From: Streptococcus toyakuensis
GTDB taxonomy: Bacteria > Bacillota > Bacilli > Lactobacillales > Streptococcaceae
Length of the DNA stretch: 64,000 nucleotides
Assembly: GCF_024346585.1 (NCBI RefSeq)
Contig: NZ_AP024523.1
Coordinates: 1,683,001 to 1,747,000 of the forward strand
Reading direction: 5' to 3'
The notes below the pieces were generated by a model. That model saw nothing but the letters and a program-made list of their open reading frames with translations, did not search any database and was not told where the DNA came from. A program made the translations under genes and the position numbers. Below, piece by piece: positions 7,219 to 58,538 of this stretch (position 1 is the stretch's first letter; each line of letters begins with the position of its first letter).

Positions 7219-7908
7219 CTATTCTTGCATGGTGTAACCAACACCACGAACGGTTTTAATGTAGCTTTTCTGACCTTTTACATCAAGCTTGCTACGTAGA
7301 TAACGGATATAGACATCCACGATATTGGTTTCGGTCGCACTTTCATACTTCCAGACACTTTCCAACAACTGCTCACGAGTCAGAACTTTCTTGCTTCCCA
7401 TAAGAGTAGCCAAAAGGTCATACTCACGGCGCGTCAGAGCAATCATCTCCTCGCCACGATAAACGGTATGATGCTCTACATCCATACGCAGATTGCGATA
7501 AGACGTTGGAACCTTCATCTGACTACAGTGTTGATCTATAAAGTCCCGACCTCGGAAAATCGCTGAAATACGAGCTACCAGATTCTCAATAAGGACTGGC
7601 TTATAGATGTAAGAAACAGCAAAGCGTTGGATTGTCTCAATATGGTCTTGCAATTCTTCGCGATGATCCAAGACCATGATGACTGAAGCTGGCTTAGTCC
7701 GACTCAGCTTGTCTGCAAAATCCTGGGCCGTCATATCCCCCAGATGAGCATTCAATAAAATCAAGTCATAGTCTGTTTGAAGAGCCATGGAGAGGGCTTT
7801 TTGCCCCTCCTCAACCTGATCAACTCGGTATTGCTCTTTTTGGAGTTCCAAACTTAAAAAGTGAGCTAGATTTCGTTCTTTCTCAAGTAATAAAATCCGT
7901 TTCCCCAT
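7219..7908 (-). CDS. ritR: RitR, orphan OmpR-family response regulator (iron/redox)
   Basis: A 229-aa regulator with an N-terminal receiver fold (1-~118) and a C-terminal winged-helix DNA-binding domain (~135-229, ending VRGVGYTM). The usual phospho-acceptor aspartate is Asn53 (LILLN), and Cys128 is present in the linker (IDQHC). Both are hallmarks of pneumococcal RitR, which represses iron uptake (piu) and switches by cysteine oxidation and dimerisation rather than phosphorylation. No histidine kinase gene is nearby, in keeping with an orphan. It starts 11 bp after gnd and is probably cotranscribed with it. Its terminator has been split by the IS, which may change its 3' end. Confidence 0.95.
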   Translation of the reverse strand: MGKRILLLEKERNLAHFLSLELQKEQYRVDQVEEGQKALSMALQTDYDLILLNAHLGDMTAQDFADKLSRTKPASVIMVLDHREELQDHIETIQRFAVSYIYKPVLIENLVARISAIFRGRDFIDQHCSQMKVPTSYRNLRMDVEHHTVYRGEEMIALTRREYDLLATLMGSKKVLTREQLLESVWKYESATETNIVDVYIRYLRSKLDVKGQKSYIKTVRGVGYTMQE

Positions 7909-53258: not shown

Positions 53259-53328
53259 TTTAGAAATAATAAAATAAATTCCAATTTATTTCTAAATATT
53301 TGAAAATAATGTCTATTTGTATTATACT
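53259..53328 (+). promoter_or_regulatory. Promoter and possible operator of the AAA/DUF4143 gene
   Basis: TTGAAA (53300-53305), 17 bp and TATACT (53323-53328) form a good sigma-70 promoter 19 nt before the ATG. Immediately upstream is a perfect 11-bp inverted repeat TTTAGAAATAA / TTATTTCTAAA (53259-53269, 53286-53296), a candidate operator. Confidence 0.65.
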
Positions 53329-53346
53329 ATCTTTGAGGTATCTATT

Positions 53347-54555
53347 ATGAACTATATTAAAAGACCACATTATTTAGATTTTTTAAGAAGACATCGTGAC
53401 CGACAAATCATCAAAGTTGTGAGTGGAGTTAGACGAGCTGGTAAATCTGTTCTCTTTCAACTCTATAAAGAGGAGTTACTAGCAACTGGGGTAGACGAGG
53501 ATCAAATCATATCCATCAATTTTGAGGATCTGAGTTACTATGACCTCCGACATTTTCAAACATTATACGCTTATATAAAAGATCAATTAGTTAGCGAGAA
53601 AACATACTATATCTTTTTAGATGAAATTCAACATGTTGAGAAATTTGAACTGGTAGCAGATAGTCTATTCATCCTACCAAATGTTGACCTCTATTTGACT
53701 GGATCAAACGCCTACTTTATGAGCAGCCAATTAGCAACAAACTTGACTGGTCGGTATGTTGAGATAGAGGTTCTTCCTTTGTCATTTGAAGAATATCTAT
53801 CAGGTCAATCTCTCACAGAAAATCTGAATACAACAGAAATTTTTAACAATTATCTCTTTAGTGCTTTCCCTTACTTATTGCAAACATCATCTTACGCTGA
53901 AAAAATTGATTATCTAAGAGGAATATATAACTCAATACTGTTAAATGATATTGTAACTAGATTAGGAAATCCAAATCCTACTATTATTGAACGCATTGTC
54001 CGAACCCTTCTCAGTAGTACAGGTAGCTTAATATCAACAAATAAGATTCGCAATACCCTGGTCAGCCAAAACGTTTCAATCTCCCATAATACTTTGGAAA
54101 ATTATTTGACGACTTTGACAGATAGTTTGCTTTTTTATTCCGTTCCACGTTTTGATGTAAAAGGTAGAGCATTATTGCAACGCTTAGAAAAATATTATCC
54201 CGTTGATTTAGGTTTACGACATCTCTTATTACCAGACCACAAAGAAGACATTGGGCATATCTTGGAAAATATGGTATATTTAGAATTGAGACGTAGATAT
54301 TCACAAGTATATGTTGGTAATTTAGATAAATATGAGGTTGATTTTGTTGTTGTAACTGATCTTGGTCACTACACTTATTATCAAGTCAGTGAAACAACAC
54401 TTGCTCCAGAAACACTAGAAAGAGAACTTAGACCACTAGAAGCCATTAAAGATCAATTCCCAAAATATCTATTAACAATGGATACGATTCAGCCAACAGC
54501 CAATTACAATGGTATTGAGAAGAAAAATATCATAGATTGGTTACTAGAAAAGTAG
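53347..54555 (+). CDS. AAA ATPase with DUF4143 domain
   Basis: A 402-aa protein of the bacterial/archaeal AAA_14-DUF4143 group. The Walker A VSGVRRAGKSVLF (~27-39) and Walker B YYIFLDEIQ (~90-98) are intact, the sensor-like LTGSNAY follows (~118), and the C-terminal DUF4143 region contains a PD-(D/E)XK-like stretch (YEVDFVVVTDLG, then YYQVSETT). Such genes are widespread singletons in accessory regions and their role is unknown; nuclease or nucleotide-dependent regulation is guessed. I chose the ATG at 53347 because the promoter overlaps the longer frame. It lies outside the rpsI island. Confidence 0.8.
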   Translation: MNYIKRPHYLDFLRRHRDRQIIKVVSGVRRAGKSVLFQLYKEELLATGVDEDQIISINFEDLSYYDLRHFQTLYAYIKDQLVSEKTYYIFLDEIQHVEKFELVADSLFILPNVDLYLTGSNAYFMSSQLATNLTGRYVEIEVLPLSFEEYLSGQSLTENLNTTEIFNNYLFSAFPYLLQTSSYAEKIDYLRGIYNSILLNDIVTRLGNPNPTIIERIVRTLLSSTGSLISTNKIRNTLVSQNVSISHNTLENYLTTLTDSLLFYSVPRFDVKGRALLQRLEKYYPVDLGLRHLLLPDHKEDIGHILENMVYLELRRRYSQVYVGNLDKYEVDFVVVTDLGHYTYYQVSETTLAPETLERELRPLEAIKDQFPKYLLTMDTIQPTANYNGIEKKNIIDWLLEK

Positions 54556-54574
54556 ATAGGCACTGAACACATAA

Positions 54575-54715
54575 ATTGAGACAAAAGAATAATGCTCCTG
54601 TTGACATTTAGTGAAACTATAAACAGGAGTGTTTTATTATGACCTAAAAAGATTATTCAGTAGAAACTAATATTAGACTAAAAATCAATGGTGGAAACTC
54701 TTGATTTTTAGACAA
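54575..54715 (+). mobile_element. Possible left-end remnant of an insertion sequence
   Basis: The hairpin at 54594-54636 runs straight into ATGACC-TAA followed by codons that would read KDYSVETNIR, similar in style to an IS3 OrfA start, then an 11-bp inverted repeat CTAAAAATCAA / TTGATTTTTAG (54678-54711). The layout (terminal sequence, hairpin, ATG) resembles the IS at 5769. It carries a stop at codon 3 and lacks everything downstream. Weak call. Confidence 0.3.
54594..54636 (+). terminator. Terminator of the AAA/DUF4143 gene
   Basis: GCTCCTGTT / AACAGGAGTG with a 19-nt loop, then TTTTATTATG, about 40 nt past the stop codon. Confidence 0.6.
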
Positions 54716-54752
54716 AAAAAGACATCCAAGAGAAAATTCTTGAATGTCTGTA
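54714..54752 (-). terminator. Terminator at the left island border, probably the original rpsI terminator
   Basis: Minus-strand AGACATTCAAGAATTTTCTC / TTGGATGTCT followed by seven T. It lies directly outside the left attachment site. If the island is removed it falls straight after the rpsI 3' end, the spot for an rpsI terminator. It now also follows the HEPN gene. Confidence 0.6.
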
Positions 54753-54800
54753 AACGTTGATATAATCGTATTGATTAACGTTTTGAGGCAACTGACCTTG
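54751..54800 (-). other. Attachment-like site A (left end of the rpsI island)
   Basis: AAACGTTGATATAATCGTAT then TGATTAACGTTTTGA copies the last bases of rpsI and its flank (site C at 58122-58160) with two mismatches. It is followed on the island side by GGCAACTGACCTTGTCAG, which recurs in modified form at site B. It is interpreted as attL of an element integrated at the 3' end of rpsI. Confidence 0.75.
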
Positions 54801-54867
54801 TCAGGTTGCAGCCACATTTGTAAGCGACTAAAGTCGCAACAACTGTGTCAATTGTTCCAATTTCCAT
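54775..54867 (-). CDS. Possible 30-aa ORF overlapping attachment site A
   Basis: The minus strand encodes MEIGTIDTVVATLVAYKCGC followed by ten residues ending in SVASKR, whose last codons lie in the attachment core. An AGGATG lies about 7 nt upstream of the ATG. Site B shows a related ending (AKSVALKR, then stop), and rpsI itself ends QFSKR. The shared tail is explained by the att core, so coding use is uncertain. Confidence 0.35.
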   Translation of the reverse strand: MEIGTIDTVVATLVAYKCGCNLTRSVASKR

Positions 54868-54904
54868 GAAAACATCCTAAATCATTGAGCTAATGGCTTG
54901 AGGT

Positions 54905-56356
54905 TTAGAATTTTTTATATTTATATTTCATATCCAATTCTTGATAAATATAATATCTCAGCACTTCTTGAAGAAGCAATTTTGTTTCATACATCTCCCT
55001 GATATCTGTTATCATTTCTGGATAGTTATCTTTCGAATCACCATGAGTATAGTAATTTCGTGTTTGAATTAATTTTATTATTAGTAATTCTCTCTCACTA
55101 TTCGAAAAAATTTTAGACAGATTAAGCTCATCAATTGAATCGAATAAATTTTTTAAACGTTCGGCAAGGTTAGGCTCTTTTTGATTAAATTTCAATTTAT
55201 TTCTAAATTTTCTTCTTACCTCTTCTAAAAGATGTGTGTTTATAAAGTCAAACAAAGATTGTCTAGCTTTTTCTTCAACATCAGATAAACATTTCGGATT
55301 TTTAAAATTCTTAAAATTTCTAGAGTAAACTTCCAAATTCCTAATAGCATCAACCAACTGATCTTCCAAATATAAATCACCATGAAGATTTTTTGAAAAT
55401 TGTCTCACTATAAATTCAAGTTCCTCAGATTTATCAAACCAATGATTTAAAATATGTTCAAAACTATCTTCTAATGCCCTCAAAGAAATATCTTGCTGAG
55501 AATACGATTTCCATTTTTGGGATTTTCTAGAATGCTGAACAAAGAATTTGCCTTTTATAAGTGGCATACGCTTACCATCTATCATTTTATAAAGAACAAG
55601 AAATTCAATACTAGTAAAAGACAATGGTATATTTGATAAAATCTCAATAAATTCCTTAAACTTATGTGAAGCTTGATAAAATTCATCAAAATATCTTATA
55701 TTTAAATCAGCTGAAATAAGTTTAATAAAATAATCACTGGTAAATGACGTAGTTGTATATGAAGAATGGAGTATTGCCACATCTTCAAAGTTCATTCCTA
55801 GTGATCTTATTAACACTTTTGTTGGTTGATATTCACTTACTGCACTTTCAAAAATAGTTTGATTGTCTCTATATTTAACAGTTACCAATGATTTTTCAAT
55901 CCATTCCTCAATATGTTCAAAGCTAAAATTATATTCCTTGATTTTTTCAGAATCTAATTCATTAATTAAATCTTTAAAGGCCTCAGAACTATAATCAAAA
56001 TTTCCAAGCTCATTATAAAATACACTGTAAATTTTAAAATTTTTTACTCTATATCTAGTTATCGGAAATCCAGGAGATGAGGAATGTACCATTGGTTCAC
56101 CATAAGTATTTAAAATTAAAATATTACCATTACTGGAGAAACCATATATCTTTTCCAAACACTTACCAAAACCGAATGAAATGCCTGATTCCTCTTCAAA
56201 TCCACCAAATAATTCTAATACAATTTCACTAGGAGAATAATGTAAAATACCGCTCAAGTTATCCTTACTAACTATATCGTCGGAACGTTCTGAAAAATAC
56301 CCTTTTATTTCAAACTCTTTATTCCAAGTGTAATCTTTAAATTTCATATTATCCAT
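54905..56356 (-). CDS. ApeA-like HEPN-domain protein (probable abortive-infection RNase)
   Basis: A 483-aa soluble protein. The N-terminal ~300 residues form a beta-rich domain resembling the ApeA N-terminal domain (FEIKGYFSERSDD; GILHYSPSEIVLELFG; YSVFYNELGNFDY). The C-terminal ~170 residues are helical and carry the HEPN nuclease motif R433-NYYT-H438 (R-X4-H) in QTRNYYTHGD. HEPN domains with this motif are usually metal-independent RNases; ApeA-type proteins are known anti-phage effectors. No signal peptide or membrane segment. It lies 73 bp downstream of a zinc-ribbon gene on the same strand, inside the rpsI island. The HEPN motif is seen; the ApeA family label is recognition without a search. 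The gene is AT-rich relative to the core flanks. Confidence 0.78.
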   Translation of the reverse strand: MDNMKFKDYTWNKEFEIKGYFSERSDDIVSKDNLSGILHYSPSEIVLELFGGFEEESGISFGFGKCLEKIYGFSSNGNILILNTYGEPMVHSSSPGFPITRYRVKNFKIYSVFYNELGNFDYSSEAFKDLINELDSEKIKEYNFSFEHIEEWIEKSLVTVKYRDNQTIFESAVSEYQPTKVLIRSLGMNFEDVAILHSSYTTTSFTSDYFIKLISADLNIRYFDEFYQASHKFKEFIEILSNIPLSFTSIEFLVLYKMIDGKRMPLIKGKFFVQHSRKSQKWKSYSQQDISLRALEDSFEHILNHWFDKSEELEFIVRQFSKNLHGDLYLEDQLVDAIRNLEVYSRNFKNFKNPKCLSDVEEKARQSLFDFINTHLLEEVRRKFRNKLKFNQKEPNLAERLKNLFDSIDELNLSKIFSNSERELLIIKLIQTRNYYTHGDSKDNYPEMITDIREMYETKLLLQEVLRYYIYQELDMKYKYKKF

Positions 56357-56429
56357 TCTGATTGCTTTTCAAAAATCTTCACAACTTTCTAAACTATGAT
56401 TTTTATGTCGGTACTACCTTTTAATTGTA

Positions 56430-57545
56430 TTAGACCAGCTTCCAATTCTCATCATTCGAGTTATCAATCAGAATATTTCTTTTATTACTCAGTAATTCAT
56501 CACTCACAAAATATTGCCCTAGTCTCTCTACAAAACCACAATTCTGACAAGTATATAGATAATCTTCTTTTATTTCCCTCACTAAATTGATATTGAACTT
56601 ATATATCCTCCCGCATTCTTCACATGTCATGCTAAGATTATCACCATTAAATATGAAATCAAAAATACTTTCTAATTCTTTATTTTCTTCTCCAGATAAA
56701 GCTAAAATTATCTTGAAATTTCTAATATACCGGTTAAGGGTAACTATTTCTAAATCAATATCAAAATATTTCTCAAATATAGCAATAGCTACTTCTACTA
56801 AATAAATTAGAATGTAGGGTGTTTTCTCATAGAACAAATGCCAAAAATCATCCCAAATCTTATCATCAGAAAATATAAAATTAAGATTTCGCTTTTCCGT
56901 AGGATAATTTTTATTCTTTGTCACCAAATGAATAGATTGATCAAATACACTTGTTAAACTATTTTCTGCCTTTCGATTATATATAATGTCATATAGTAAT
57001 TCAGGATCAAGTAATTCTCTACTAAAATCCAAAAAACCATTTTCATACTGAATCGATTCTTTTGCTTTTAAAAGTAGGTCAATAACAAATTCTTTTTTAC
57101 CCTTCAAATCACTTACGTCATATTCCCTAAGCTCTCCATATTGTATTTTTTCTAAGAAATCATGTGGTTGAACCAATATCCAACTTAAATAAAATAAATT
57201 ATCTTGAAAAGGTTTCCTAGCAAGAGAAAATGCAACAGTAACTTTTCCCCTCTCTATACAACTCAGAGATTCAAATAGATAGTAATTTAAATCACGTAAA
57301 ATTGAAAAAAAGATGTGAGGTATATATACATATTCAGAAATATCTAAATCTTTTTGTCTATCTAGTTCATCAAACAAGTCAATTTCATCATTTATCTCAT
57401 TAGTAAATCTAAAAGATAGACTGGATAATTGATATTTATCAGCTTTAACCAAAATATCAACTAGTATATCGTACAAATATAGCATTAATTGATGACGTTT
57501 TCTATACTTAGTTGGTAATAATTCTGAGATGTGAGATTTAGCCAA
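56430..57545 (-). CDS. Uncharacterised zinc-ribbon protein paired with the HEPN gene
   Basis: About 371 aa, soluble. The N-terminal and central parts are helical (FFSILRDLNYYLFESLSCIE; TVAFSLARKPFQDNLFYLSWIL), a pattern reminiscent of HEPN-like DUF5677 proteins, but no R-X4-6-H motif is visible. The C-terminus has a four-cysteine zinc ribbon, CEEC (~308-311) and CQNC (~333-336), suggesting nucleic-acid or protein binding. The start is probably the TTG at 57545 with GAGGAAAG upstream; no ATG lies near. TATAAT (minus strand, 57585-57590) is a plausible -10. I do not recognise the family. Gene order suggests an operon with the HEPN gene. Confidence 0.68.
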   Translation of the reverse strand: MAKSHISELLPTKYRKRHQLMLYLYDILVDILVKADKYQLSSLSFRFTNEINDEIDLFDELDRQKDLDISEYVYIPHIFFSILRDLNYYLFESLSCIERGKVTVAFSLARKPFQDNLFYLSWILVQPHDFLEKIQYGELREYDVSDLKGKKEFVIDLLLKAKESIQYENGFLDFSRELLDPELLYDIIYNRKAENSLTSVFDQSIHLVTKNKNYPTEKRNLNFIFSDDKIWDDFWHLFYEKTPYILIYLVEVAIAIFEKYFDIDLEIVTLNRYIRNFKIILALSGEENKELESIFDFIFNGDNLSMTCEECGRIYKFNINLVREIKEDYLYTCQNCGFVERLGQYFVSDELLSNKRNILIDNSNDENWKLV

Positions 57546-57584
57546 TATTACTTTCCTCAATTCTTTTTAACTCTACATAACTAT

Positions 57585-57590
57585 ATTATA
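57585..57590 (-). promoter_or_regulatory. -10 of the zinc-ribbon/HEPN operon
   Basis: TATAAT on the minus strand about 40 nt upstream of the TTG start. No clear -35. Confidence 0.45.
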
Positions 57591-57683
57591 CTCTAAAAGT
57601 ACTCAGTCTTTATCTAGAAGGTTCCTATATAACTTAACAATTATTTTAAGTGTAAACCTAGAAAAGCACTTTGCAAATAGCTT

Positions 57684-57740
57684 TGAAATATTGATATAAT
57701 CGTATCAATTAACGCTTTAAAGCAACTGACTTTGCCAGCT
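57684..57740 (-). other. Attachment-like site B (internal)
   Basis: AAATATTGATATAATCGTAT then CAATTAACGCTTTAAAGCAACTGACTTTG is a decayed copy of site A: same 14-bp block TTGATATAATCGTA and same downstream GCAACTGAC. Left of it, TAGCTTTGAAAT resembles the GTGCTTTGAAAC left of site C. It marks a boundary between two element remnants. Confidence 0.65.
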
Positions 57741-57772
57741 CCCAGTCATATTATAGTGTCGTTATAGCAAAA

Positions 57773-58039
57773 GGAAACATCAACAAGCCTTTACACTCTG
57801 ACTATCTCAATAATAAGATGAAAACTATCAGAAAGCGACACCCAGAGCTTACACACGCTACACCACATAAACTACGTCATACGGGAGCAACGCTCGCTAA
57901 ACAGGCTGGAATGAGCTTAGAAGCCATTTCCGAAGCTCTAACACATAGCGACACAGGTACAACACAGATTTATGTCAATACTTCTAATGTAGTCCCTATG
58001 GCAGTCGGTGAATTTGCCTTAAGGTCTCTAAAACAATAA
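57773..58039 (+). pseudogene. C-terminal fragment of a tyrosine-recombinase integrase
   Basis: About 88 codons of the catalytic C-terminus remain: NKPLHSDYLNNKMK, box II ATPHKLRHTGATLAKQAG (H-x-x-R), then ALTHSDTGTTQIYVN with the nucleophile Tyr, and the end at LRSLKQ. The frame stays open upstream to site B but without recognisable integrase sequence, and the catalytic Arg I and N-terminal arm-binding domain are missing. It sits directly beside site C, where an element integrating at rpsI keeps its integrase, so it is the remnant of that enzyme. Confidence 0.85.
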
Positions 58040-58084
58040 GGTGAAAATAAGGTAAACTTTGAGGTGAACTTTTTCAAAAAACAT

Positions 58085-58124
58085 AAAAAAAGCACCCATG
58101 AGGTAAACTCTTGAGTGCTTTGAA
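58085..58124. terminator. Bidirectional terminator at the right island border
   Basis: AAAGCACTCAAGAGTTTACC / CATGGGTGCTTT read on the minus strand, ending in seven T. It serves rpsI now that the island separates it from the older terminator at 54714-54752, and on the + strand follows the integrase remnant. Confidence 0.65.
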
Positions 58125-58160
58125 ACGTTGATAGTATCGTATTGATTAACGTTTTGAGAA
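58122..58160 (-). other. Attachment-like site C (rpsI 3' end)
   Basis: AAACGTTGATAGTATCGTAT then TGATTAACGTTTTGAGA spans the last codons and stop of rpsI. It matches site A at all but two positions over about 36 bp. Integration here leaves rpsI coding sequence intact, the usual strategy of elements targeting gene 3' ends. Confidence 0.75.
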
Positions 58161-58538
58161 TTGTGAAGCTTTACGAGCTTTCTTAAGACCTGGTTTCTTA
58201 CGTTCAACTTTACGTGAGTCACGTGTAAGAAGTCCTGCGCGTTTCAATGAATCGCGGAAGTCTGGGTCTACTTGAAGAAGGGCACGAGCGATACCGTGAC
58301 GGATAGCTCCTGATTGACCAGCGTATCCACCACCTACAACGTTAACGAAAACGTCGTATGAACCTGCAGTTGAAGTAACTGCGAATGGTTGGTTGATAAC
58401 AAGACGAAGGTCAGCGTGTGGGATGTACTCTTCAACATCTTTTTTGTTAACAGTGATTTTACCAGTTCCTGGAACAAGGCGAACGCGTGCAACAGCGTTT
58501 TTACGACGTCCAGTACCTGCATATTGTGCTTGTGACAT
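58146..58538 (-). CDS. rpsI: 30S ribosomal protein S9
   Basis: 130 aa, complete. Family signatures [40 protein letters not shown] and the C-terminal [16 protein letters not shown]...FSKR tail, which reaches the P site. It is cotranscribed with rplM 18 bp upstream. The 3' end is the island attachment site and is not truncated. Confidence 0.98.

Follow-up and report, generated by a model that had tools for sequence, protein, structure and literature searches.

Does the ApeA-like effector gene found beside rpsI in Streptococcus toyakuensis act on its own, or does it belong with the gene that precedes it? ApeA was reportedly described by Gao et al. 2020 as a one-gene system, whereas in the window, that is, the whole stretch of 64,000 nucleotides analysed here, a second conserved gene precedes the effector. 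The two open reading frames lie on the minus strand and are separated by a 73-nt gap (56357–56429), as the original prediction had it. The downstream ORF, at 54905–56356, encodes 483 aa, and the upstream gene, hereafter the partner, lies at 56430–57545 (371 aa). The partner ORF reaches 57560 (376 aa), and alignment with relatives placed its natural, conserved TTG start at 57545. In relatives of the downstream gene, the start corresponds to the codon at 56347, which gives a protein of 480 aa beginning with MKFKDY; if this start is used in the window, the true gap to the partner would be 82 nt. Order and spacing are conserved: among the seven other adjacent pairs found, the gap is 82 nt in four and 69, 81, and 81 nt in the remaining three. 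Upstream of the pair, on the minus strand at 58146–58538, lies an ORF that we take to be rpsI (ribosomal protein S9) from reading its own sequence and from its position beside rplM. The predicted location at rpsI was thus borne out, and a 73-aa C-terminal remnant of a tyrosine integrase is found between the pair and rpsI (57818–58039, plus strand; Pfam PF00589, E 1.9e-9). The same slot in another Streptococcus genome (G154, locus L075) holds a longer integrase-related gene. On the other side, a gene for an AAA_14 and DUF4143 ATPase (53317–54555, plus strand), which matches the PADLOC candidate PDC-S01 (6.7e-151), converges with the two genes; this ATPase gene also adjoins them in L007, L008, and L075.

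Profile matches identify the downstream gene as a homologue of ApeA. Its protein matched Pfam PF18862 (ApeA_NTD1) over residues 16–306, with 61.7 bits against a gathering cut-off of 25.5 (E 1e-16), and PF18739 (HEPN_Apea) over residues 336–478, with 69.4 bits against a cut-off of 24.4 (E 5.6e-19). The membership proposed from motifs therefore stood, and the N-terminal half, earlier described as beta-rich, scored to ApeA_NTD1. The C-terminal HEPN motif R433-X4-H438, here R433-NYYT-H438, is present and near-invariant: among the 120 ApeA homologues listed, 12 of which were gapped, R433 was kept in 107/108 and H438 in 108/108. On these family grounds, ApeA is a predicted HEPN ribonuclease and would cut RNA. 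In the tables of a HEPN review, ApeA is given as an ApeA-NTD1 domain of ~300 aa, mostly beta-strand, fused to HEPN (PMC3710099), that is, with the same two-domain architecture and R-X4-H motif as the window effector. A PDB sequence search with both window proteins gave no convincing chain match. Nine of the 120 listed ApeA homologues (P0208, P0223–P0228, P0230, and P0231; 389–396 aa) break off in the linker ahead of the HEPN domain with a frameshift-like tail. Eight of these tails finish in AC, seven of them in NTKKGA(K/E)AC, and they may be read as a recurrent loss or switch of the HEPN half.

The effector turned out not to be undescribed, as had been supposed, since it is already catalogued in PADLOC as the candidate PDC-S58. 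The match was near full-length (residues 4–482 on positions 1–479 of a model of 480; E 3.3e-229), and a match to the Cas13-ApeA model was also obtained (E 1.8e-62). PADLOC models did not cover the partner beyond weak C-terminal matches. Table 3 of PMC11514479 has PDC-S58 for S. thermophilus ST55, and it is absent from the cloned genes enumerated in the available part of that paper.

The partner is a protein of another kind. It has a helical body with ERGKV, RKP, and SxHxxT...LNF motifs, followed by a C-terminal C4 zinc ribbon, and the CxxC...CxxC pattern originally noticed in it proved to be conserved among homologues. In the partner alignment A1, C313, C316, C338, and C341 are invariant in 27/27 rows, and so are E97, R115-K116-P117, D120, H211, T214, N227, and F230. 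A homologue search gave 139 matches, of which 120 were listed, entries named Streptococcus and Gemella being among those listed; of the 116 listed sequences that extend to these columns, 116, 116, 115, and 115 kept the respective cysteines (4/120 were gapped). In a 13-row alignment that includes Vibrio and Pontibacter relatives (A3), RKP, the H and T of HxxT, and N-x-N-x-x-F are invariant while the ribbon is absent from the Vibrio and Pontibacter rows. This indicated that what defines the partner family is its helical body and not its ribbon.

Profile searches with the partner returned no full-length family, the matches being weak and all at the C-terminal ribbon. An AF2 model of fair quality was obtained (pLDDT 79.5, pTM 0.84), and a fold search with it gave no convincing match of any kind. 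DUF5677 (PF18928), which the original prediction had put forward for checking, was absent from the Pfam matches of both window proteins at E ≤ 1 and, for A1 members, from the 25 Pfam families listed out of 56, and hhalign of the A3 family against one single DUF5677 protein gave a probability of 0.4%. Likewise, no HEPN family appeared among the Pfam matches of the window partner or, for A1 members, among the 25 families listed out of 56, and hhalign of partner against ApeA gave a probability of 0.7%. In our assessment, the partner belongs to an undescribed protein family.

Are the two genes expressed together? A TATAAT box and a GAGG motif precede the partner start in all nine partner loci that were aligned, whether ApeA follows or not; in the window, the box lies ~40 nt before the start, at 57585–57590 on the minus strand, and a scan for promoter-like sites did not place it among the full ones. 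A scan for terminator-like sites found none in the 73-nt gap. The sole such site in 54500–58200 is a stem-loop behind apeA (54720–54749, minus strand), for an expectation of 0.9 by chance. Because the two motifs before the partner recur in 9/9 loci, the gap is free of terminator-like sites, and one stands behind apeA, a single transcript is likely, and partner and apeA are likely co-transcribed, with the partner first.

To see how often the two genes go together, 284 Streptococcus genomes were scanned with A1 (partner) and with the ApeA alignment A2, which matched in 14 and 18 genomes, respectively. The partner was full-length in 11 genomes (with one stop in G217), truncated in 1 (G154), and present as a remnant in 2 (G208, G030). 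ApeA of the close clade, whose members were at least 77.5% identical in a comparison of six loci, was intact in seven genomes (G000, G029, G032, G066, G070, G136, and G154) and IS-split in one (G126). The partner stood directly upstream in 8/8 of these, fragments not being counted, in the same order and at 69–82 nt; the hosts include Streptococcus sp. LQJ-218 (G029), S. mitis SK608 (G070), S. minor (G136), and S. bovimastitidis (G066), as matched by coordinates. The overlap expected by chance between 12 partner and 8 ApeA genomes is ~0.3, the genomes not being independent. Partner and ApeA identities ran in parallel (six loci, 15 pairs of loci, r = 0.97, these pairs not being independent), and the eight linked pairs span at least five different gene neighbourhoods. 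The expectation that the genes would be neighbours in other genomes was thus confirmed, and for the close clade the description of ApeA as a one-gene system did not hold; three diverged copies and three fragments stand without the partner. The linkage in the close clade argues for a functional tie. At L068 (6242–13245), an IS-like gene pair splits ApeA, a second copy of this pair lies at the ApeA 3′ side, and the partner is open; a gene for a Stk2-like kinase (6.3e-186) lies upstream.

A repeat search revealed attachment-like repeats just outside the two genes. Copy 1 (54752–54818, plus strand) marks the distal boundary and copy 2 (57686–57752, plus strand) the proximal one, and they are 79% alike over 67 nt, with 7 mismatches in a 36-nt core. 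A third copy of the core, with 2 mismatches in 36, overlaps the 3′ end of rpsI (58123–58158, plus strand), making rpsI the gene that putatively hosts the attachment site. When up to 9 mismatches in 36 were allowed, the window contained no further copy of the core, and three shuffled windows contained no copy at all. Between the window repeats, we found no integrase or transfer gene, just the pair and short overlapping ORFs. Repeats on both sides, as imperfect copies 2.9–3.0 kb apart, bound the pair in the window and in 3/7 other pair loci (2933 bp apart in L007, 2934 bp in L008, and 2994 bp in L070). A single copy, at rpsI, was found in L075, and none was found in L011, L012, and L068.

Integration at rpsI is known from the available text of PMC5090054 (IMESag-rpsI), and CIMEs are defined in that of PMC5704250 as elements that have lost their integration and transfer genes and retain attL and attR. 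The pair resembles these elements in its integration at the rpsI 3′ end, in its att repeats on both sides, and in having no recombinase inside; it differs from them in that the whole cargo is one two-gene cassette. At rpsI, the pair would thus be an att-flanked, recombinase-less, CIME-like cassette of 2.9 kb, and it is probably mobile among streptococci. Relatives have other cargo in this slot. In S. mitis SK608 (L008:2546–7456), type III restriction-modification genes (PADLOC 6.5e-174 and 3.9e-219) adjoin the att-flanked pair. In L080, near 7640–7858 (G030:C23:27639–27857), a stop-ridden partner remnant lies ~370 nt behind rpsI and may be what is left of a cassette that decayed at this site.

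What, then, might the two proteins do? The explanation that we favour, with somewhat less than even confidence, is a two-gene abortive-infection cassette in which ApeA is the effector and the partner gates it, by tuning or by triggering its activation. ApeA would be a HEPN ribonuclease (R433/H438) that stays idle until infection and then cuts host and/or phage RNA, so that phage growth stops; that it is an RNase ending infection is what we infer from its family membership. The gating would come from the partner, whose gene stands first and is probably transcribed together with apeA, and the partner would be a member of a family that also occurs alone or beside other defence genes, not one invented for ApeA. 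The pair would travel among streptococci, at rpsI as a CIME-like unit. According to the title of a preprint (Juozapaitis 2026, cited in PMC13405049), deoxydinucleotides activate ApeA. ApeA may thus sense infection by itself, which counts against gating; in that case, the partner may adjust a sensing ability that ApeA has of its own. Also against gating speak the one-gene description of ApeA, the ApeA copies that lack a partner (diverged, fragmentary, or broken, as detailed below), the shortened partner of G154, the S. caviae partner that has no ApeA, and the four of seven other pair loci without both repeats. As far as the available parts of PMC4621449 and PMC13405049 go, HEPN-MNT toxin-antitoxin pairs and the HEPN protein of the type IX retron are like the cassette in that a HEPN protein comes with a co-encoded protein, the control being theirs and, for the cassette, proposed by us. 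Unlike in those systems, none of the partner's family matches points to an MNT, winged-helix, or reverse-transcriptase protein.

Alternatively, and quite plausibly, if on balance doubtfully, the two would be independent defence genes that came to share a cassette by co-transfer, ApeA acting alone and the partner being a defence protein of its own. Of the 12 Streptococcus genomes in which the partner is full-length or truncated, four have no ApeA (the partner is open in G016, G178, and G252, and has one stop in G217). In G016 and G178 (by coordinates, S. suis L009 and S. orisratti L010) and in G217, a 174-aa gene or a broken form of it lies 17 nt downstream of the partner, and in G252 (S. caviae, L013) the partner has no companion. 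The idea that the partner is dedicated to ApeA had therefore to be dropped, and its presence away from ApeA argues for a general accessory. ApeA, for its part, occurs without the partner in three diverged streptococcal genomes (43–49% identity to the paired copies) and in L059:4959–6456, on a 760-kb Limosilactobacillus fermentum record, as a 71%-identical copy broken over two frames between IS genes. The split ApeA beside an open partner in L068 and the distant partner relatives near different defence genes also speak for independence. Against it stands the constancy of order, spacing, and co-occurrence in all eight close-clade pairs over their several neighbourhoods, since free association would be expected to shuffle them.

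Several observations accompany these loci. The unnamed 174-aa protein is encoded in ApeA's place downstream of the partner at L009:9140–9664, L010:9140–9664, and L069:9101–9732 (broken in L069). Its family matched in 8/279 Streptococcus genomes, five of them without the partner, and in G213 a relative is flanked by a type I specificity gene on one side and by an unnamed gene on the other. The diverged, partner-less ApeA clade (L071, L072, L073) has one gene context common to three Streptococcus genomes, with neighbours that we take to be NUDIX, prmA, and rsmE genes. The three streptococcal ApeA fragments (G296, G085, and G086) have no partner alongside.

A classic antitoxin role, in which the partner would hold ApeA inactive in toxin-antitoxin style with the antitoxin gene first, seems improbable to us. 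Gene order and the short gap are antitoxin-like, an open partner next to a broken ApeA in L068 fits the idea, and the HEPN RNase of the type IX retron is held in a complex until infection, according to the text available of PMC13405049. However, in G154 (L075) an intact ApeA stands with a partner reduced to its C-terminal 189 aa, which argues that the whole partner is not essential. In addition, partner-less ApeA is found in the three diverged streptococci and in two Enterococcus plasmid records (L060 and L061, identity about 31%), and the S. caviae partner has no companion. With one ApeA accompanied by half a partner and the diverged copies by none, a strict antitoxin is less likely. Finally, it is very unlikely that the genes came together by accident at a recombination hotspot, functionally unconnected and with a partner that plays no part in defence: rpsI is an integration site and decayed elements accrete at such sites (PMC5090054 and PMC5704250, parts available), but linkage persists where no rpsI was seen in the stretch (L011, L012, L068, and L070), and both proteins have near-invariant motifs over 120 listed homologues each.

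Returning to the partner as a putative gating component of the cassette, we asked where its family occurs elsewhere. In an order-level sample, A1 matched in 8/395 genomes, four of them Streptococcus and two of the other four weak, and in a phylum-level sample A3 matched in 4/398, the window's own genome included and two being weak. The partner family is therefore rare outside streptococci. Some distant relatives lie near defence genes. In B. subtilis DE0224 (L018), a relative broken by a transposase-like gene lies 7 nt behind a gene for an OLD-like nuclease; on a Vibrio plasmid (L058), one lies 141 nt behind PDC-S31; in L081, one stands between PD-T4-7 and the KAP ATPase PDC-S49; and in L017, one is found within a SIR2-HerA cluster. 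About half of the partner-relative loci scanned showed no such defence neighbour. These neighbours form a combinatorial pattern without a measured background and are thus a lead. In L076:7998–11196, a shortened relative adjoins a DEDDh exonuclease/PDC-S48-like gene and a type II methyltransferase gene; this locus is worth noting in view of the reported activation of ApeA by deoxydinucleotides.

A bolder reading, which we consider rather unlikely, is that the partner founds a family of exchangeable defence accessories, with a helical body, RKP, HxxT...NxNxxF, and an optional zinc ribbon, that would plug into unrelated effectors and supply a common infection-sensing or gating step. The effectors would then be ApeA, the S. 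suis-type 174-aa protein, the OLD-like nuclease, SIR2-HerA, PD-T4-7/KAP, and PDC-S31, and the family might be likened to the shared adaptors of other modular immune systems.

What appears new here is the partner gene linked to ApeA, the effector type being already known; in the parts available of the open-licence literature on ApeA, PDC-S58, and HEPN/zinc-ribbon anti-phage systems, we found no account of the two genes as a pair. Should the partner gate ApeA, then ApeA is not always stand-alone, and single-gene callers would miss half of the system in streptococci. The att-flanked 2.9-kb form suggests how other elements may carry a minimal defence unit without a recombinase of its own. More broadly, the partner may serve bacterial immunity as a reusable accessory, and its family, if it truly works with several effectors, would offer a way into a sensing or control step that they share.
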